A DNA stretch of 46,669 bases from Lachnospiraceae bacterium (GTDB lineage Bacteria > Bacillota > Clostridia > Lachnospirales > Lachnospiraceae), in contig JALFHZ010000141.1 in the NCBI GenBank assembly GCA_022776445.1, forward strand, positions 1 through 46,669, read 5' to 3'. The notes under the pieces are model-generated. The model searched no databases. It was not told the DNA's origin and saw nothing but the letters and a program-made list of their open reading frames with translations. Both the position numbers and the translations under genes were made by a program. Shown here piece by piece: positions 4,708 through 13,460 of this stretch (the first letter of the stretch is position 1; the number at the start of each line of letters is the position of its first letter).

Positions 4708-5169
4708 TTATTCAATTGCAATATATTTTTTCGTTTCCTCAACCGGTTTTGCTTCCTTCTTCGGAACAAAAAGCTTCAGAATGCCATGCTTGAATTCACC
4801 CTTAATATCGGCTTCTGTAAGATCTTCGCCAACATAGAATGAACGCTCGCAGGCTCCGGCATAACGCTCTCTGCGGATATATTTACCGGTTTCTTTCTCC
4901 TGCTCATCCTGATCTACGCCTTTCGCCGCGCTGATCGTCAGGCAGCCATCTTCAAGGGAAACCTGAATCTCATCTTTCTTAAAGCCAGGAAGATCGATCT
5001 CCAGTTCATAACCATTGCTCAATTCCTTGATATCGGTCTTCATCAGGTTCTTGCTGTGATGTCCATACAGCTTCTTCTCAACTTTCTTCTCATCCCTGTC
5101 ATCAAAGAATGGAAAATCTCTCATAAACTCATCAAATAAATTCTCTCCAAAAATGCTCGGCATTAACAT
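4708..5169 (-). CDS. Hsp20/alpha-crystallin small heat-shock protein (second copy)
   Basis: The 153-residue protein has a short N-terminal arm (MLMPSIFGENLFDEF) shared with its neighbour and a lysine-rich insert at about 25-45. The alpha-crystallin domain spans about 45-140 (LEIDLPGFKKDEIQVSLEDG, RRERYAGACERSFYVGEDL, FKHGILKLFVPKKE), followed by a C-terminal tail ending KKYIAIE. Small heat-shock proteins form oligomers that hold unfolding proteins without ATP. It lies 27 bases behind the other hsp20, shares its promoter and ends at a strong terminator. The two copies look like a tandem duplication. Confidence 0.95.
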   Translation of the reverse strand: MLMPSIFGENLFDEFMRDFPFFDDRDEKKVEKKLYGHHSKNLMKTDIKELSNGYELEIDLPGFKKDEIQVSLEDGCLTISAAKGVDQDEQEKETGKYIRRERYAGACERSFYVGEDLTEADIKGEFKHGILKLFVPKKEAKPVEETKKYIAIE

Positions 5170-5196: not shown

Positions 5197-5622
5197 TTAT
5201 CCTTCAATCGCAATGTACTTCTTCTCTTCCACCGCCGGTTTCGCTTCTTTCTTCGGAACCATCAGTTTCAGAGTACCGTCTTCAAACTTTGCCTTAATGT
5301 CTTCCTGTGTCACAGCATCACCGACATAAAAGCTTCTGCTGCAGGAACCGCTGTAACGTTCACGGCGGATATATCTGCCTTCTTCATCCTTCTGGTCGCT
5401 GCTGCTGTTGGAAACTGCGTTAATGGTCAGATAACCATCTTTCAGTTCTGCCTTAACATCTTCCTTTTTAACTCCCGGAAGATTCATCGTGATTTCATAT
5501 CCCTGATCCGTATCCTTAATATCTGTCTTCATCAATGCAGTGGTCTGGAAATCATAATGTACGGTTGGGTAACCAAAAAAGTCATCTAATAAGTTTTCTC
5601 CAAAAATACTCGGCATTAACAT
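5197..5622 (-). CDS. Hsp20/alpha-crystallin small heat-shock protein (first copy)
   Basis: This 141-residue paralog lacks the lysine-rich insert of the second copy but has the same N-terminal arm, alpha-crystallin domain (EITMNLPGVKKEDVKAELKD, RRERYSGSCSRSFYVGDAV) and tail (KKYIAIEG). Its function is an ATP-independent holdase. It is the first gene of the operon, with AAGGAGAG upstream of ATG 5622. The promoter 120 bases upstream overlaps a CIRCE element, so HrcA repression relieved by heat is the likely control. Confidence 0.95.
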   Translation of the reverse strand: MLMPSIFGENLLDDFFGYPTVHYDFQTTALMKTDIKDTDQGYEITMNLPGVKKEDVKAELKDGYLTINAVSNSSSDQKDEEGRYIRRERYSGSCSRSFYVGDAVTQEDIKAKFEDGTLKLMVPKKEAKPAVEEKKYIAIEG

Positions 5623-7477: not shown

Positions 7478-10400
7478 CTATCGGAATGCTTCCACCAGCT
7501 CTTCCGCATCCAGAAAGCTCTGTTTCTTTAATTCTTCCACAAACCACTCATCCACGCCATCGACAGCATTCTTAAAGGATTCCACATCCAGTTCATCCTG
7601 TGCCGTGATCTTCACGCCATTCTTACTCATCCAGCGATTCATGATCTCATCATCACCGGCACGGTTGATGTAACGCTCATACTGCGTTGCCTTCTGACCG
7701 CACTCATCCACTACTGCCTGCTGCTCCGGAGTCAGGCTGTCGTAAAGCTCCTGATTGATACAGAAGAACAGACAGTCATAATTGGCATTCCACAGGGAAC
7801 AGTACGGCTGCACTTCCTGCACACTTGCTGCATCAATCGCCGGAAGCGGATTCTCCTGGCCTTCCACCGTCTTCTGCTGCAGCGCCGTATAGGTCTCAGA
7901 CCAGTTCATATTCGTCGCATCCGCACCCCAACGTTTGTAACACTCCATCAGCAGGTTGCTTCCTGCCACACGGATCTTCAGGTTCTTCATATCGTCCACA
8001 GACTTCACTTCACGCACGTTGTTGGTCAGCTGGCGGAAACCGTTCTCCGCGATACCCATGCAGTGCAGACCATATTCCGACAGAATCTCTTTCAGCTTTT
8101 CGCCGCCCTTGCCGTCCAGCTTCGCATCAGCATCTGCCACAGAATCAAACAGATATGGCAGCGACACCACATTAAACCTCGGATCAAATGCAGAGTAGAT
8201 CAGATTGCTGTGCATGGAGATCTGAATCGGGTCGCCATCCATCAAGGCCTGAATGCCTTCCGACTGATTGCCGTTGGTCAGCTGGTCTGCCGCGTAGACG
8301 TTCACCTTTACTTTACCTCCGGTCGCCTTCTCCATCAATTCGCCAAACTTACGGCCGCCTTCCGCCCAGGTACTGGTCTCCGTGGTGGAACAGGTAAAGT
8401 TCCAGGTCTGTTCTCTCCACTCCAGATCACTGTAGTCATCCACCGTACTGAACGCTGCAATTTTCGCATCATCCGCTCCGGCAGCCGCACCATTTCCGGA
8501 AGTACCTGCCGTCTCTGCAGCTTCCGGTGCCTCTGCGGTAAATGCCGCAATCAGCTCTGCCGCATCCGCATAGCCCTGATTCTCCAGCTCCGTCTGATAC
8601 CACTGGTCAATGCCATCCACTGCTGCCCGGAAGGAGTCCACATCCAGATCCGTATAAGCCGTGATGGTCACACCATTTTTCTCCTGCCAGCGGCTCATGA
8701 TTTCTTCATCGCCGGATCGGTTGATGTATCGCTCATACTGTGTTGCTTTCTGGCCGCATTCATCAATCACAGCCTGCTGCTCCGGAGTCAGCTTCTCATA
8801 AATCTCCCCGTTGATACAGAAGAACAGACAGTCATAATTGGCATTCCACAGGGAACAGTACGGCTGTACCTCCTGTACACTTGCCGCATCAATCGCCGGA
8901 AGCGGGTTCTCCTGGCCTTCCACCGTCTTCTGCTGCAGCGCCGTATAAGTCTCGGACCAGTTCATATTGGTTGCATCTGCGCCCCAGCGTTTGTAACATT
9001 CCATCAGCAGGTTGCTTCCTGCTACACGGATCTTCAGGTTCTTCATATCATCCACGGATTTGATTTCGCGCACGTTGTTGGTCAGCTGGCGGAAACCATT
9101 CTCTGCGATGCCCATGCAGTGCAGGCCATACTCGCTCAGAATTTCTTTCAGTTTCTCGCCTGCCGGACCATCCAGTTTTGCATCGGCATCCGCTACAGAA
9201 TCAAACAGATATGGCAGCGACACCACATTGAATCTCGGGTCAAATGCAGAGTAAATCAGATTGCTGTGCATGGAAATCTGTACCGGATCGCCGTCCATCA
9301 AAGCCTGAATGCCTTCGGACTGGTTGCCGTTGGTCAGCTGGTCTGCCGCATAGACATTAACCCTGATTTTGCCTCCGGTTGCCTTCTCAACCAGTTCCCC
9401 GAACTTGCGTCCGCCCTCTGCCCAGGTACTGGTCTCCGTGGTGGAACAGGTAAAGTTCCAGGTCTGCTCTTCCCAGCCCAGGTCACTGTGATCCTCCACT
9501 TCAAAGCTTCCGTAATTAATCGCTGCATCGGATGTAAAGGCTGCAATCAGCTGCTCTGCATCTTCATAATTCTGTTTTTCCAGTTCTTCCTGATACCACT
9601 GGTCAATTCCCTCAACTGCTTTTTTGAAGGAATCTACATCCAGATTTTCATAAGACGTAATGGTCACGCCGTTTTTCTCCTGCCAGCGGCTCATGATCTC
9701 CTCATCGCCGGCACGGTTGATATGACGCTCATATGCTACTGCCTTCTGTCCTGCCTCATCTACAACCGCCTGCTGTTCCGGAGTCAGACCGTCATACAGC
9801 TTCTGGTTGATGCAGAAGAACAGGCAGTCATAGTTGGCGTTCCACAGCGAACAGTATGGCTGTACTTCCTGTACACTTGCCGCATCGATTGCCGGAAGCG
9901 GATTCTCCTGGCCTTCCACGGTCTTCTGCTGCAGTGCCGTATAGGTCTCAGACCAGTTCATATTGGTCGCGTCTGCACCCCAACGCTTGTAACACTCCAT
10001 CAGCAGATTGCTGCCTGCCACACGGATCTTCAGGTTTTTCATATCATCCACGGATTTGATCTCACGTACGTTGTTGGTCAGCTGACGGAAACCATTTTCC
10101 GCGATACCCATGCAGTGCAGACCGTACTCGCTCAGGATGTCTTTCAGCATCTCTCCTGCCGGTCCATCCAGCTTCGCATCGGCATCCTCGACAGAATCAA
10201 ACAGATACGGCAGGGATACCACATTGAATCTCGGATCAAACGCAGAATAAATCAGGTTGCTGTGCATGGAAATCTGCACCGGATCGCCGTTCATCAGTGC
10301 CTGAATTCCTTCCGACTGATTGCCGTTGGTCAGCTGGTCTGCCGCGTAAACATTGACCTTCACCTTGCCGCCGGTGGCCTTTTCCATCAGCTCGCCGAAC

Positions 10401-11890
10401 TTGCGTCCGCCCTCTGCCCACGTACTGGTCTCCGTTGGGGAACAGGTGAAGTTCCAGGTCTGCTCTTCCCAGCCCAGACCAGAATAATCCCCGATCTCGT
10501 TCCATACCTCATCGGATGCGGCAGAACCCGCATTTTCAGAAGAATTCTGTCCGGAACCGGTCTGGACTGCGGCTGTACCGGTATAGGAACCTTCACCCGC
10601 CATTGCTTTGGGCAGGAACGTGGAGATGTCCGGAATATAGGTGATCACCAGAAGCACGACAACACAGGCAGTGATCATCGGAGCAACGGCTCTGGAAATC
10701 TTCGGAATGTCCACTTCCATTCCCTTTTTCAGCTTCACGGCAATCGCCACAAACAGGTTTACGCCAACCGGCGGTGTTACCTGACCGATCGCCAGGTTTA
10801 CAGTTGCAACCAGACCAAATGCAACCACATCGTATCCCAGCTGCTTACATACCGGAAGCATGATCGGGATAAAAATATACATGGCAGAGTTGGCATCAAT
10901 GAAGCATCCTGCAATCAGGAAAATCACATTGACAATAATCAGGAAAGTAAACTGATTATGTGCAATGCTTCCCAGCAGTTCGGATGCCGCCTGCGCGATA
11001 CCAAATTTGGTGCAGACGAAGGAGAACAGGGATGCGCATGCCACGATCAGCATGATGCCGCCCGTAGTCTTTCCGGAATCAATCAGGATATTCCACAGAT
11101 CCTTCACCGTAACCTCCCGATAAACAACCATACCAACAAACAGACCATACACCACAGATACCGCTGCCGCCTCGGTTGGAGTGAAGATACCGCCGTAGAT
11201 ACCGCCCAGAATGATCACCGGCATCAGGAGTCCCCAAAATGCTTCTTTAAATGCTGCCCAGCGCTCTGCCGCAGATGCTTTCTGCTGAGAGGACTGAATA
11301 TGGTTCTTTCTGGCTTCAATCATAACCACAATGACCAGAGCCGCACCCATCAGAATACCCGGTACAATACCTGCGGTAAACATATCCGCGATGGAAACGC
11401 CGGTAATGGATGCGTAAACGACAAACGCGATGCTCGGCGGAATGACGATTGCGATAGAGCTTGCCGTCGCCATCAGCGCAGCCGAGAACGGAGCAGAGAA
11501 ACCGCCCTGCTCAATCATGGCCGGGATCAGCACACTTCCCAGCGCCGCTACCGTCGCGGGACCGGAACCGGAGATCGCACCGAAAAAGCAGGCAACGATA
11601 ACGCACACGATTGCAATACCGCCTCTCCGGTGTCCGACACAGGTATTAACAAACTTGATCAGACGCTTGGAGATACCGGCCTTTGCCATAATATTGCCGG
11701 ACAATACGAAGAACGGAATTGCCAGCAGCAGGAATTTACTGATACCGGAATACATATTGGTTGCCACAATCGTCAGCGAAGTACCGGAATACAGGATTGC
11801 GCATACGGAGGACAATCCCAGGCAGATGCTGATCGGAATTCCCATAATCAGGAAAATGAAGAAAGAGATAAACAACACTGCACTGATCAT
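7478..11890 (-). CDS. TRAP transporter large permease DctM fused to three tandem DctP solute-binding domains
   Basis: A single uninterrupted 1470-residue frame. Residues 1-430 are a complete DctM (TRAP large permease): GIPISICLGLSS, the GSGPATVAALGSVLIPAM loop, TATASS-type and PPSIAFV motifs, GGIFTPTEAAAVSVVYGL, and a last helix at about 404-419. A Ser/Gly/Ala-rich linker (431-467) leads to three DctP-type binding domains at about 468-795, 800-1127 and 1152-1470. Each has TWNFTCSxTETSTWAEGG, NGNQSEGIQAL, SLPYLFDSV, the ligand-region stretch LKIRVAGSNLLMECY, VEGQENPLPA and LTPEQQAVVDE. TRAP systems use an ion gradient and normally a separate binding protein. Here all receptors are tethered, and no free DctP gene or signal peptide is present. 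ATGA overlap couples it to dctQ. Confidence 0.93.
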   Translation of the reverse strand: MISAVLFISFFIFLIMGIPISICLGLSSVCAILYSGTSLTIVATNMYSGISKFLLLAIPFFVLSGNIMAKAGISKRLIKFVNTCVGHRRGGIAIVCVIVACFFGAISGSGPATVAALGSVLIPAMIEQGGFSAPFSAALMATASSIAIVIPPSIAFVVYASITGVSIADMFTAGIVPGILMGAALVIVVMIEARKNHIQSSQQKASAAERWAAFKEAFWGLLMPVIILGGIYGGIFTPTEAAAVSVVYGLFVGMVVYREVTVKDLWNILIDSGKTTGGIMLIVACASLFSFVCTKFGIAQAASELLGSIAHNQFTFLIIVNVIFLIAGCFIDANSAMYIFIPIMLPVCKQLGYDVVAFGLVATVNLAIGQVTPPVGVNLFVAIAVKLKKGMEVDIPKISRAVAPMITACVVVLLVITYIPDISTFLPKAMAGEGSYTGTAAVQTGSGQNSSENAGSAASDEVWNEIGDYSGLGWEEQTWNFTCSPTETSTWAEGGRKFGELMEKATGGKVKVNVYAADQLTNGNQSEGIQALMNGDPVQISMHSNLIYSAFDPRFNVVSLPYLFDSVEDADAKLDGPAGEMLKDILSEYGLHCMGIAENGFRQLTNNVREIKSVDDMKNLKIRVAGSNLLMECYKRWGADATNMNWSETYTALQQKTVEGQENPLPAIDAASVQEVQPYCSLWNANYDCLFFCINQKLYDGLTPEQQAVVDEAGQKAVAYERHINRAGDEEIMSRWQEKNGVTITSYENLDVDSFKKAVEGIDQWYQEELEKQNYEDAEQLIAAFTSDAAINYGSFEVEDHSDLGWEEQTWNFTCSTTETSTWAEGGRKFGELVEKATGGKIRVNVYAADQLTNGNQSEGIQALMDGDPVQISMHSNLIYSAFDPRFNVVSLPYLFDSVADADAKLDGPAGEKLKEILSEYGLHCMGIAENGFRQLTNNVREIKSVDDMKNLKIRVAGSNLLMECYKRWGADATNMNWSETYTALQQKTVEGQENPLPAIDAASVQEVQPYCSLWNANYDCLFFCINGEIYEKLTPEQQAVIDECGQKATQYERYINRSGDEEIMSRWQEKNGVTITAYTDLDVDSFRAAVDGIDQWYQTELENQGYADAAELIAAFTAEAPEAAETAGTSGNGAAAGADDAKIAAFSTVDDYSDLEWREQTWNFTCSTTETSTWAEGGRKFGELMEKATGGKVKVNVYAADQLTNGNQSEGIQALMDGDPIQISMHSNLIYSAFDPRFNVVSLPYLFDSVADADAKLDGKGGEKLKEILSEYGLHCMGIAENGFRQLTNNVREVKSVDDMKNLKIRVAGSNLLMECYKRWGADATNMNWSETYTALQQKTVEGQENPLPAIDAASVQEVQPYCSLWNANYDCLFFCINQELYDSLTPEQQAVVDECGQKATQYERYINRAGDDEIMNRWMSKNGVKITAQDELDVESFKNAVDGVDEWFVEELKKQSFLDAEELVEAFR
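7481..10489 (-). repeat. Three tandem DctP-domain repeats within the TRAP gene
   Basis: The units occupy about 9506-10489, 8510-9493 and 7481-8437. The anchor tryptophan codon of each (TWNFTC) lies at 10454, 9458 and 8402, giving periods of 996 and 1056 bases. The extra length in the second interval is an Ala/Gly-rich linker. Amino acids of the central 200 residues are almost the same in all three while many third codon positions differ, so the copies are old enough to have drifted silently but are held alike at the protein level. Confidence 0.93.
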
Positions 11891-12381
11891 TTCACATCCT
11901 CCTTCTTATCCATACAGGTATCCAGAAAAAATTCGATAAAGTGCAGAATCATGCAGGCTGCACCGATCGGAACAAACGACCAGAAGATCCACTCCGGCCA
12001 GTTCAGAACGAACGTACGCTTTCCGTTCTCCAGCTGCGTGATTACTTTATCCATGCCATATTTAAACAGCACGGATGTAAAAAATACGCATAACACCGTA
12101 TTCAGAAACAATACCGGTTTACGAAGAGAAACCGGCAGACGATCCGTCACCAGAGTCAGATTGACCAGTTCGCCTTCTCTGCATGCCAGTGCGGCTGCAA
12201 TCAGCGTAATCAGGACGAATACGGCAACAACCAGTTCTTCCGTAAACGACCAGGACTGGTGAATGACTTTTCTGGAAAATACATTGCCGACCGTCAGCAC
12301 CAGAATGATGATGGTGGACGCTGCCAGCACCAGCTTTTCCAGCATGGTCAGCACATCCATCAGCTTTTTAAAAGCTCTCAT
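11887..12381 (-). CDS. dctQ: TRAP transporter small permease DctQ
   Basis: The 164-residue protein has four membrane helices (about 18-38, 48-68, 88-108, 128-150). It carries the DctQ features NVFSRKVIHQSWSFTEELVV between helices 1 and 2 and WIFWSFVPIGAACMILH near the end. DctQ pairs with DctM as the scaffold of the elevator-type transporter. Its last codons overlap the DctM start by four bases (ATGA), so translation is coupled. It is the first gene after the T-box leader, so T-box control covers the whole transporter. Confidence 0.93.
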   Translation of the reverse strand: MRAFKKLMDVLTMLEKLVLAASTIIILVLTVGNVFSRKVIHQSWSFTEELVVAVFVLITLIAAALACREGELVNLTLVTDRLPVSLRKPVLFLNTVLCVFFTSVLFKYGMDKVITQLENGKRTFVLNWPEWIFWSFVPIGAACMILHFIEFFLDTCMDKKEDVK

Positions 12382-12456: not shown

Positions 12457-12736
12457 AAAAAAAACCGCCCCTGTCAATAGGGACGGATTCATCACACCGC
12501 AACCACCCTGTTTCTTTACTGAAACAAGTACGAACACAACGTACCAGCATACGTGGTTTCTATAACGGGAAACGCCCGTGGAAACCTAATCGCATGCGTT
12601 TTCGGCTTCCCTTCTCTGAGATGATCTTCGAAACAGTCCTGCTGCTGACTCACACCAGCCGTCAGCTCTCTGGAAACCGGTCTCTGTCTCTACTTATTCT
12701 CGTCACAGAATTTACACTTTTTCTTTTTAAAGCGCT
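12457..12736 (-). promoter_or_regulatory. T-box riboswitch, probably tRNA-Ile (AUC), controlling the TRAP transporter
   Basis: On the minus strand Stem I carries AGTAGAGACAG pairing with CTGTTT, and the distal AGAGAGC-TGAC...GTCAGC arm has the loop GGCTGGTGTGA. The specifier loop strand is GAAG-ATC-A (ATC at 12623-12625). After stem III comes the T-box sequence AGGGTGGTTGCGG (12497-12509). CCGTCCCT can pair with its AGGG and GCGG parts (antiterminator) or with AGGGGCGG to form the terminator (12465-12486), followed by TTTTTTTT. The UGGU tRNA-acceptor element predicts discriminator base A, which fits isoleucine tRNA. The ACC usually found after UGGN is altered here. Confidence 0.88.
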
Positions 12737-12742
12737 GAAGCC

Positions 12743-12771
12743 ATTTTACACCCCGAATTTCGGATTGTCAA
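12743..12771 (-). promoter_or_regulatory. SigA promoter of the T-box/TRAP transcript
   Basis: A perfect TTGACA (12766-12771), 17 bases, TAAAAT (12743-12748) on the minus strand, just upstream of T-box Stem I and 25 bases past the LysE stop codon. Confidence 0.85.
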
Positions 12772-12796: not shown

Positions 12797-13393
12797 CTAT
12801 CCCAAGATCCCAACCACCTTCGCTGCGCACCACACCAGCAGTCCTGCCATAATCACATTCATAACCTTATAATGCGCCCCGTAAAAACGTTTCAGAACAT
12901 TCCCGGCAAATGCCCAGATCAGATTGCCGATCGCTCCAAGCACCATGAGGTAAAACGCATATCCCAGCAGATACACCGGTTCCTGCACATAGGGCAGAAT
13001 AAACGCGGAAAACATCGTCAGGCCATAGATGATAATCTTTACATTCACCAGCTGCAAAAAAATCCCGGCTGCATAGGTCGGTTCCCGATCCGCATCCTTT
13101 TCCCCCGGCGGGAGCCGCCGCATGGTCTGATATGCCAGATAAAGCATATACACCGCACCGATATATTTCATCACAGGCGCAATCCCCGGAATCACATCTG
13201 ACAGAGTCCGGCACAGCAGACCGGACAACATCATCAGTGACAACGACCCGGTCCAGATCCCCGCCATAAATTTCATATTTTTTCGAATCCCGTATTTGCT
13301 TGCATTTGATAAAAGCAGAATGTTATTGGGTCCCGGTGACCAGACCGTCAGACATGCCGTCAACGTCATATCACAGAAAAAAGAAAATGGCAT
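12797..13393 (-). CDS. LysE/RhtB-family amino-acid exporter
   Basis: I choose ATG 13393 (AGGAGAGG upstream) over a longer frame to 13432 that runs into the promoter. The 198-residue protein has about six helices and the LysE signature SPGPNNILLLSNASKYGIRKN near residues 18-38, a GxxxG-rich second helix and a long LQLVNVKIIIYGLTMFSAF segment. Family members export amino acids such as lysine, threonine, homoserine or cysteine derivatives; the substrate here is unknown. It lies directly upstream of the T-box operon but has its own promoter. Confidence 0.88.
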   Translation of the reverse strand: MPFSFFCDMTLTACLTVWSPGPNNILLLSNASKYGIRKNMKFMAGIWTGSLSLMMLSGLLCRTLSDVIPGIAPVMKYIGAVYMLYLAYQTMRRLPPGEKDADREPTYAAGIFLQLVNVKIIIYGLTMFSAFILPYVQEPVYLLGYAFYLMVLGAIGNLIWAFAGNVLKRFYGAHYKVMNVIMAGLLVWCAAKVVGILG

Positions 13394-13430
13394 AATCGTT
13401 CCTCTCCTGATAAAATACATTTCTCCATCC

Positions 13431-13460
13431 ACTATAGCACGTGGAACGCGAAGAATGCAA
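13431..13460 (-). promoter_or_regulatory. Promoter of the lysE-family gene
   Basis: TTGCAT (13455-13460), 18 bases, TATAGT (13431-13436) on the minus strand. The -35 box abuts the T-tract of the ahpC terminator. Confidence 0.6.

Follow-up and report, generated by a model that had tools for sequence, protein, structure and literature searches.

A conserved isoleucine-type T-box leader in front of a TRAP transporter operon with fused receptor domains in Lachnospiraceae

What would a tRNA-sensing leader do in front of a TRAP transporter, and what might such a transporter carry? The question is raised by a contig of 46,669 nucleotides from a Lachnospiraceae bacterium (this whole stretch is called the window below), in which a T-box precedes an operon formed by dctQ and a dctM gene fused to several dctP domains. 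Only a minority of the TRAP transporters of gut Firmicutes have a known substrate, and a conserved tRNA-sensing leader is a testable genetic label for the cargo. Furthermore, TRAP systems would join the transporter classes under T-box control, and Blautia and its relatives are common in the human gut, so that competition for amino acids and cross-feeding are touched as well.

The Rfam covariance model RF00230 (T-box) matched the window at 12715..12476 on the minus strand, with 112.6 bits and an E-value of 3.2e-24. This match is full length (model positions 1-219 of 219), lies above the gathering threshold of 93, is the sole one in the window at that threshold and was recovered at the same place when the whole genome was searched with Rfam. 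The preliminary description, made from the letters of the sequence, had called a T-box with a competing terminator and antiterminator at 12457-12736, no strand being named, and had proposed precisely this search; the class is confirmed, the span fits a minus-strand element together with the U-run of its terminator, and the competition is visible in an arm that both structures have in common. The leader contains the following parts.

12743 to 12771, minus strand: sigma-70-like promoter, TTGACA-17-TAAAAT, 11/12 match, suggestive only (shuffled sequences hold a mean of 0.6 sites)
12476 to 12715, minus strand: full-length T-box leader (RF00230)
12623 to 12625, minus strand: specifier AUC (Ile), followed by A, placed by the RF00230 alignment, the covarying register and conservation
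12502 to 12505, minus strand: UGGU, predicted to pair with the ACCA end of tRNA-Ile (discriminator A), from RF00230 and the tRNA-Ile genes of two Blautia genomes
12479 to 12509, minus strand: antiterminator AGGG-[UGGUU]-GCGG...CCGU-CCCU, with a 5-nt bulge instead of the usual 7-nt one
12457 to 12486, minus strand: intrinsic terminator, 8-bp stem and U8, with CCGUCCCU in common with the antiterminator

The transcribed leader has GAA-G-AUC-A as its specifier loop and AGGGUGGU as its T-box. The stem-loop of the terminator, at 12486..12465, is followed by eight T. The CCGUCCCU that makes up the 5' side of this stem also serves the antiterminator AGGG-UGGUU-GCGG as its 3' arm, and because it belongs to both, the two structures are mutually exclusive; the assignment of helices in this short-bulge antiterminator is our own drawing. 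The scans for promoters and terminators did not rise above shuffled sequences (one found each, against means of 0.6 and 0.5), and the folding of Stem I as a single sequence was unremarkable (z -0.79), as was that of the antiterminator. Therefore, the case for the leader rests on the covariance model and on conservation. At the level of sequence, both its nature as a riboswitch and its specificity for isoleucine are solid, and a response to tRNA would be expected from its membership of the T-box family.

Downstream of the leader there are two genes, the second of which encodes four domains of the transporter in one protein.

11887 to 12381, minus strand: dctQ, TRAP small permease, 164 aa (PF04290), its stop overlapping the DctM start by 4 nt
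7478 to 11890, minus strand: DctM-DctP-DctP-DctP fusion, 1470 aa (PF06808 once, PF03480 three times)
9566 to 10465, minus strand: DctP domain 1, predicted fold with a mean pLDDT of 91.0
8570 to 9469, minus strand: DctP domain 2, 91% identical to domain 1
7514 to 8413, minus strand: DctP domain 3, 89% identical to domains 1 and 2

The DctQ, DctM and DctP components are all present (PF04290, PF06808 and PF03480), and the window protein has both the DctP fold and its Arg/Arg/Asn carboxylate site; the solute-binding protein (SBP) is fused to DctM and is not a separate soluble or lipid-anchored one. Among the three DctP domains, whose number was read from a fragmented source assembly (246 contigs), identity is 89-91% at the protein level and 83-86% at the DNA level. 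In the window, DctM-P is followed downstream by a convergent gene, with no other gene in between. Elsewhere on the minus strand, the window holds two tandem HSP20 genes (4708-5169 and 5197-5622).

The arrangement is not restricted to this contig. A scan of genome contigs gave 38 loci matching the fusion protein, nearly all of them from Lachnospiraceae, in the genera Blautia, Roseburia, Hespellia, Fusicatenibacter, Oliverpabstia and Robinsoniella. Searches for DctQ in 32 of these genomes led to 30 dctQ-centred loci, and in 24 of the 30 Rfam detected a T-box on the dctQ strand, 69-284 nt before the dctQ match, so the T-box that had been proposed to stand ahead of the TRAP operon in the window recurs at most of the orthologous loci. 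Together with the window this makes 25 leaders, 21 of them distinct once near-identical ones are merged. Rfam detected no T-box at the other six loci (the Roseburia loci L064, L067 and L070, the Blautia MAG locus L071, and L079 and L084), and none was found in the genomes G027 and G032, which means that the transporter does not need a T-box in order to work. The TRAP loci L044-L048, five in number and more distant, had no T-box nearby. The TRAP system is sparse in the family, since dctQ occurred in only 5 of 200 genomes sampled evenly across it, with a T-box in 3 of those 5; we infer that the sampled family is Lachnospiraceae from one sampled genome that matches F. saccharivorans.

Two sequences related to this operon deserve mention on their own account. 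At ~1260-1460 of L071, the MAG of Blautia SUG660, there is a T-box remnant, undetected by Rfam, in which the start of Stem I is joined directly to the antiterminator and terminator, the specifier and Stems II-III being gone. The other, MT836124.1 (L133:551-2492), is a scaffold obtained from human faeces and labelled, without verification, 'Bacteriophage sp.'; it has 80.7% identity to the TRAP operon over 52% of the query and is probably bacterial DNA under a phage label.

Regarding the specifier, the codon register was taken from the Rfam alignments, as the three bases before the 3' strand of the lower stem plus one base. This register fits the identity of the gene in six leaders of the same genome, namely tyrS (UAC), thrS (ACC), pheS (UUC), proS (CCG), trpE (UGG) and ileS (AUC). 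Among the remaining leaders of this genome that of aspS (L012) was left unread, L003 is ambiguous, and L001, L007 and L011 read UGG. Furthermore, the rule that the specifier occupies bases 2-4 from the bulge end, as given in the excerpt of PMC7778990, yields AUC when it is applied to the window leader, and the ileS leader of the same genome has a GAAGAUCA identical to that of the window leader. AUC is found in all 25 TRAP leaders, that is, in the window and in 24 of the 30 orthologous loci, and the next base is A in 22 and C in 3. We aligned 17 of these 25 leaders, leaving out near-duplicates and more divergent ones, and 26 of the 56 predicted pairs were changed on both sides; at pair 16-101 of the lower stem 11 leaders have GC and 6 have AU, and the covarying column pairs 15-102 and 16-101 support the AUC register. 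The frame one base earlier (GAU, AAU, UAU, CAU) is not conserved and was rejected. The frame one base later (UCA/UCC, both Ser) is conserved, yet it is out of register and would need a G-U wobble to tRNA-Ser, and it was rejected too. As for the other contact, UGGU is present in 25/25 TRAP leaders, and the tRNA-Ile(GAU) genes of two Blautia genomes carry discriminator A; a pattern search for the tRNA-Ile of the window genome itself found 3-mismatch matches only, 18 against 18 in the control. Hence the AUC specifier and the UGGU for discriminator A that had been read from the window in the preliminary description both hold, the discriminator being that of relatives, and the alignment places the specifier on no other codon.

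Some T-boxes of the window genome, and its ileS gene, showed peculiarities of their own. A T-box with a UGG (Trp) specifier (L007:1501-1755, minus strand) lies before a molybdopterin oxidoreductase-like gene, an unexpected target, another whose specifier is AUU or UUA (L003:1501-1778, plus strand) lies before a CstA-like carbon-starvation transporter, and the gene behind the UGG-reading T-box of L001 was named as an ABC solute-binding protein; these three names were given by eye, and NCBIfam at E 1e-80 gave nothing for the three genes. The ileS gene (G000:C73:2608-5109, L099) contains one in-frame TAG, either an assembly error or real.

The fusion of DctM to DctP, with a copy number that changes among orthologues, is an unusual TRAP architecture. 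Among 30 loci examined, a set without L029 (its second DctP being broken) and without loci that are truncated or distant, 1, 2, 3 and 4 DctP domains in one frame without stops were found in 9, 16, 4 and 1 loci respectively; in L044 and L046-L048 dctP, dctQ and dctM are separate genes. In a tree of 60 DctP domains, in which many forks are weak, those of L025, those of L036, domains 1-2 of L027 and domains 2-3 of L013 group by protein, and those of L026 with L030 and of L023 with L043 group by position. This mixed grouping suggests that the copy number of DctP has changed repeatedly. According to the excerpt of PMC8276074 the C-terminus of DctM is predicted to lie outside, and Q-M fusions and rarer Q-P fusions are mentioned there. 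No DctM-DctP fusion was described in the literature that we searched. The fusions with one to four receptor domains are a natural series for the question of how the number and the tethering of receptors affect the rate at which a secondary transporter that depends on a binding protein works; to our knowledge, ABC systems have until now been the main subject of such studies.

We propose, with a probability of roughly 80%, that a tRNA-Ile-sensing T-box switches a tethered TRAP importer of a carboxylate that relieves isoleucine shortage. In the cell, a class I transcription-terminating T-box would sense uncharged tRNA-Ile(GAU), the specifier AUC pairing with the anticodon GAU and UGGU with the free ACCA end. 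This pairing would hold the antiterminator, so that RNA polymerase reads into dctQ-dctMPPP, and the terminator would form when tRNA-Ile is charged. Control of the dctQ operon by uncharged tRNA-Ile is well supported on sequence grounds. The product would be a TRAP importer whose DctM has an extracellular C-terminus to which one to four solute-binding domains are tethered. In a Gram-positive cell, where a periplasm is lacking, the three domains of the window may raise the local number of receptors. The imported carboxylate, which might be isoleucine or one of the acids that lead to it, would then relieve the shortage.

Several observations speak against the proposal: the loci without a T-box, the sparse occurrence of the operon, the failure to find the tRNA-Ile of the window genome itself, the variety of ligands among solved relatives, and the presence of other routes to isoleucine. 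BrnQ was found above the cut-off in only 4 of 31 genomes, which speaks for the proposal, but the window genome is among the four; Peripla_BP_6 was found at E 1e-20 in 23 of 31, the window genome encoding one such protein, and ilvC was matched in 32 of 32, above the cut-off in 31. Because these routes are present, the TRAP system is not the sole source of isoleucine, and we rejected both the argument from a sole importer and the idea of auxotrophy.

The gene context also links the operon to amino acids, beginning with the neighbour upstream of the leader.

12797 to 13432, minus strand: LysE/RhtB-family amino-acid exporter gene (PF01810), outside the T-box transcript

In Candidatus Blautia merdavium (L026/L086) ilvB is divergent from the TRAP leader and lies behind a T-box of its own; this gene encodes the large subunit of a biosynthetic acetolactate synthase (TIGR00118, 718 bits against a cut-off of 538), and its T-box, at L086:622-878 on the minus strand, has a specifier read as GUA (Val). 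In two other genomes (G002 and G020) ileS lies downstream of the TRAP genes on the same strand and contig. A LysE-type homologue was found within the fetched flanks of 20 of the 31 loci, counting the window, with 41-76% identity; for the window exporter itself the highest-scoring NCBIfam model is that of a cysteine/O-acetylserine exporter, whose cut-off is not reached. The ilvB, ileS and LysE-type neighbours give circumstantial support to an isoleucine-linked cargo. The exporter might also mean that the two genes are an exchange or homeostasis pair, the importer being induced on starvation and the exporter serving for the excess, both for one amino acid family, as the frequent presence of the homologue and its position in four loci (L013, L018, L025 and L027, where it is 3' of DctM-P on the same strand with a gap of ~5-78 nt) would lead one to think. 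However, the position and strand of the exporter vary among loci, the window copy is located upstream of the promoter, and an isoleucine exporter co-transcribed under a switch for isoleucine starvation would be futile. We regard such a pair as unlikely, and as an addition to the T-box-controlled importer more than a replacement for it.

Regarding the cargo, all 23 aligned DctP rows keep R137, R158 and N198, the counterparts of Arg152, Arg173 and Asn213 of 4P47, which form the carboxylate site. This invariance makes a carboxylate very likely as the cargo. The roles of these residues come from the excerpt of PMC11668362, where an acidic residue at position 76 (4P47 numbering) contacts the hydroxyls of the ligand; in the window DctP this position is Gln60. 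In profile searches 4P8B and 4P47 were tied as best matches (218.8 and 218.7 bits). Among the six alignments compared, 4P8B is alone in having the Gln60 and Trp218 of the window DctP together with its insertion of two residues at 56-57, and Trp181 is common to the window DctP, 4P8B and 4NQ8. The protein in 4P8B, the SBP H16_A1328 of Ralstonia eutropha, is what we take to be an acetolactate-bound form, with 2-acetolactate as its ligand. Among the solved relatives there are also proteins that bind sugar acids, pantoate or erythronate. A ligand call by comparison of folds was rejected, the best matches being tied across ligand classes, and owing to this and to the profile tie the likeness to 4P8B is a hint only.

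It is conceivable that the isoleucine T-box is real and the cargo unrelated, the charging of tRNA-Ile serving as a general starvation signal for the import of an organic or sugar acid as fuel; close solved relatives binding 2-keto-3-deoxygluconate, pantoate or erythronate would fit this, as would the orthologues that have no T-box. We consider it improbable, given that the control by isoleucine and the linkage to ilvB and ileS recur, that Gln60 replaces the acidic residue with which those relatives contact hydroxyls, and that the excerpt of PMC2494555 lists mostly ligases, biosynthesis and amino-acid transporters as T-box targets. The regulator, the gene context and the residues of the pocket together suggest an isoleucine-linked carboxylate, whether isoleucine or a compound that leads to it, and a role as importer of branched-chain compounds (Ile, Leu, Val or an oxo acid) is a candidate only. 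The same applies to the cargo put forward in the preliminary description, isoleucine or a branched-chain 2-oxo acid, so that its interpretation is supported in part. More tentatively, and with some doubt, we suggest that this tRNA-Ile-controlled TRAP subfamily with 1-4 receptor domains scavenges branched-chain precursor acids shed by other gut microbes, such as 2-aceto-2-hydroxybutyrate, 2,3-dihydroxy-3-methylvalerate or 3-methyl-2-oxovalerate. This would account for the likeness of the pocket to 4P8B, for the acetolactate synthase gene divergent from the leader in Candidatus Blautia merdavium and for the adjoining amino-acid exporter and, if true, it would be a TRAP route for the cross-feeding of amino-acid intermediates.

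A serine T-box, with the specifier one base later, would agree with the serine codon in 25/25 leaders (22 UCA, 3 UCC) and with the exporter model that scores best next door, but it is already disfavoured and very improbable, as the six leaders with assigned genes, the published register rule and the ileS leader of the same genome all speak for AUC, and UGGU would have to wobble in every leader with the discriminator of tRNA-Ser, which is G.

The isoleucine leader departs from the usual T-box in its bulge. According to the excerpt of PMC7583486 the standard bulge is the 7-nt UGGNACC, whose ACC stabilises the discriminator; in the window leader the canonical ACC is absent, and a 5-nt UGGUU lies directly 5' of helix A2 there and in 20 of the 25 TRAP leaders, 7 nt being kept in 5. 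The ileS leader of the window genome can be drawn with the same contraction. Moreover, ACC is kept in 0/24 ileS leaders of relatives, which have bulges of variable length and were found by pattern, not with Rfam, in 24 of 30 loci (L099-L127, a further match, L121, being discarded as false). Among the other leaders of the window genome ACC is kept in 9 of 10. The short bulge as a mark of TRAP leaders alone was therefore rejected; as the ileS leaders of relatives are also without ACC, it is a variant inside the T-box family, and the loss of ACC looks like a trait of the isoleucine leaders of this group. That the window leader has decayed and no longer switches, as its bulge without ACC and the L071 leader cut down to the first bases of Stem I, antiterminator and terminator might suggest, is hardly credible, since all the required parts are intact in it and decay would not give a specifier, UGGU and terminator kept across 21 distinct leaders.

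How does this system compare with those already known? The leader resembles the class I transcriptional isoleucine T-boxes of RF00230 in its Stem I with AGAGA and GGUG elements, in its AUC followed by A, in its UGGU and in its mutually exclusive antiterminator and terminator, and it differs from them in governing a TRAP operon and in its bulge of UGGUU instead of UGGNACC. The transporters under T-box control that are named in the excerpt of PMC2494555 are ABC, APC, DAACS, LIVCS, MFS, NHAC and NSS, TRAP being absent from these, and the isoleucine T-boxes on LIVCS (BrnQ) and ABC transporters reported there exert the same control of an importer by isoleucine starvation, on another family than TRAP. 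No paper joining T-boxes with TRAP transporters was among the matches listed by our searches of the literature, a prior record among the entries of TBDB being possible; thus, within the literature searched, the conserved link between the two appears to be undescribed. The transporter has the same PF04290, PF06808 and PF03480 components and the same Arg/Arg/Asn carboxylate site as the DctP-type TRAP systems (TC 2.A.56; SiaPQM and relatives), whereas in this group the DctM chain continues at its C-terminus into one to four copies of the SBP; 4P8B, about 26% identical to the window DctP, is a single soluble SBP. Finally, the ABC importers GlnPQ and OpuA have tethered tandem solute-binding domains. 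The window transporter likewise has tandem receptor domains on a Gram-positive permease, although it is a secondary transporter of another superfamily and not a member of theirs.
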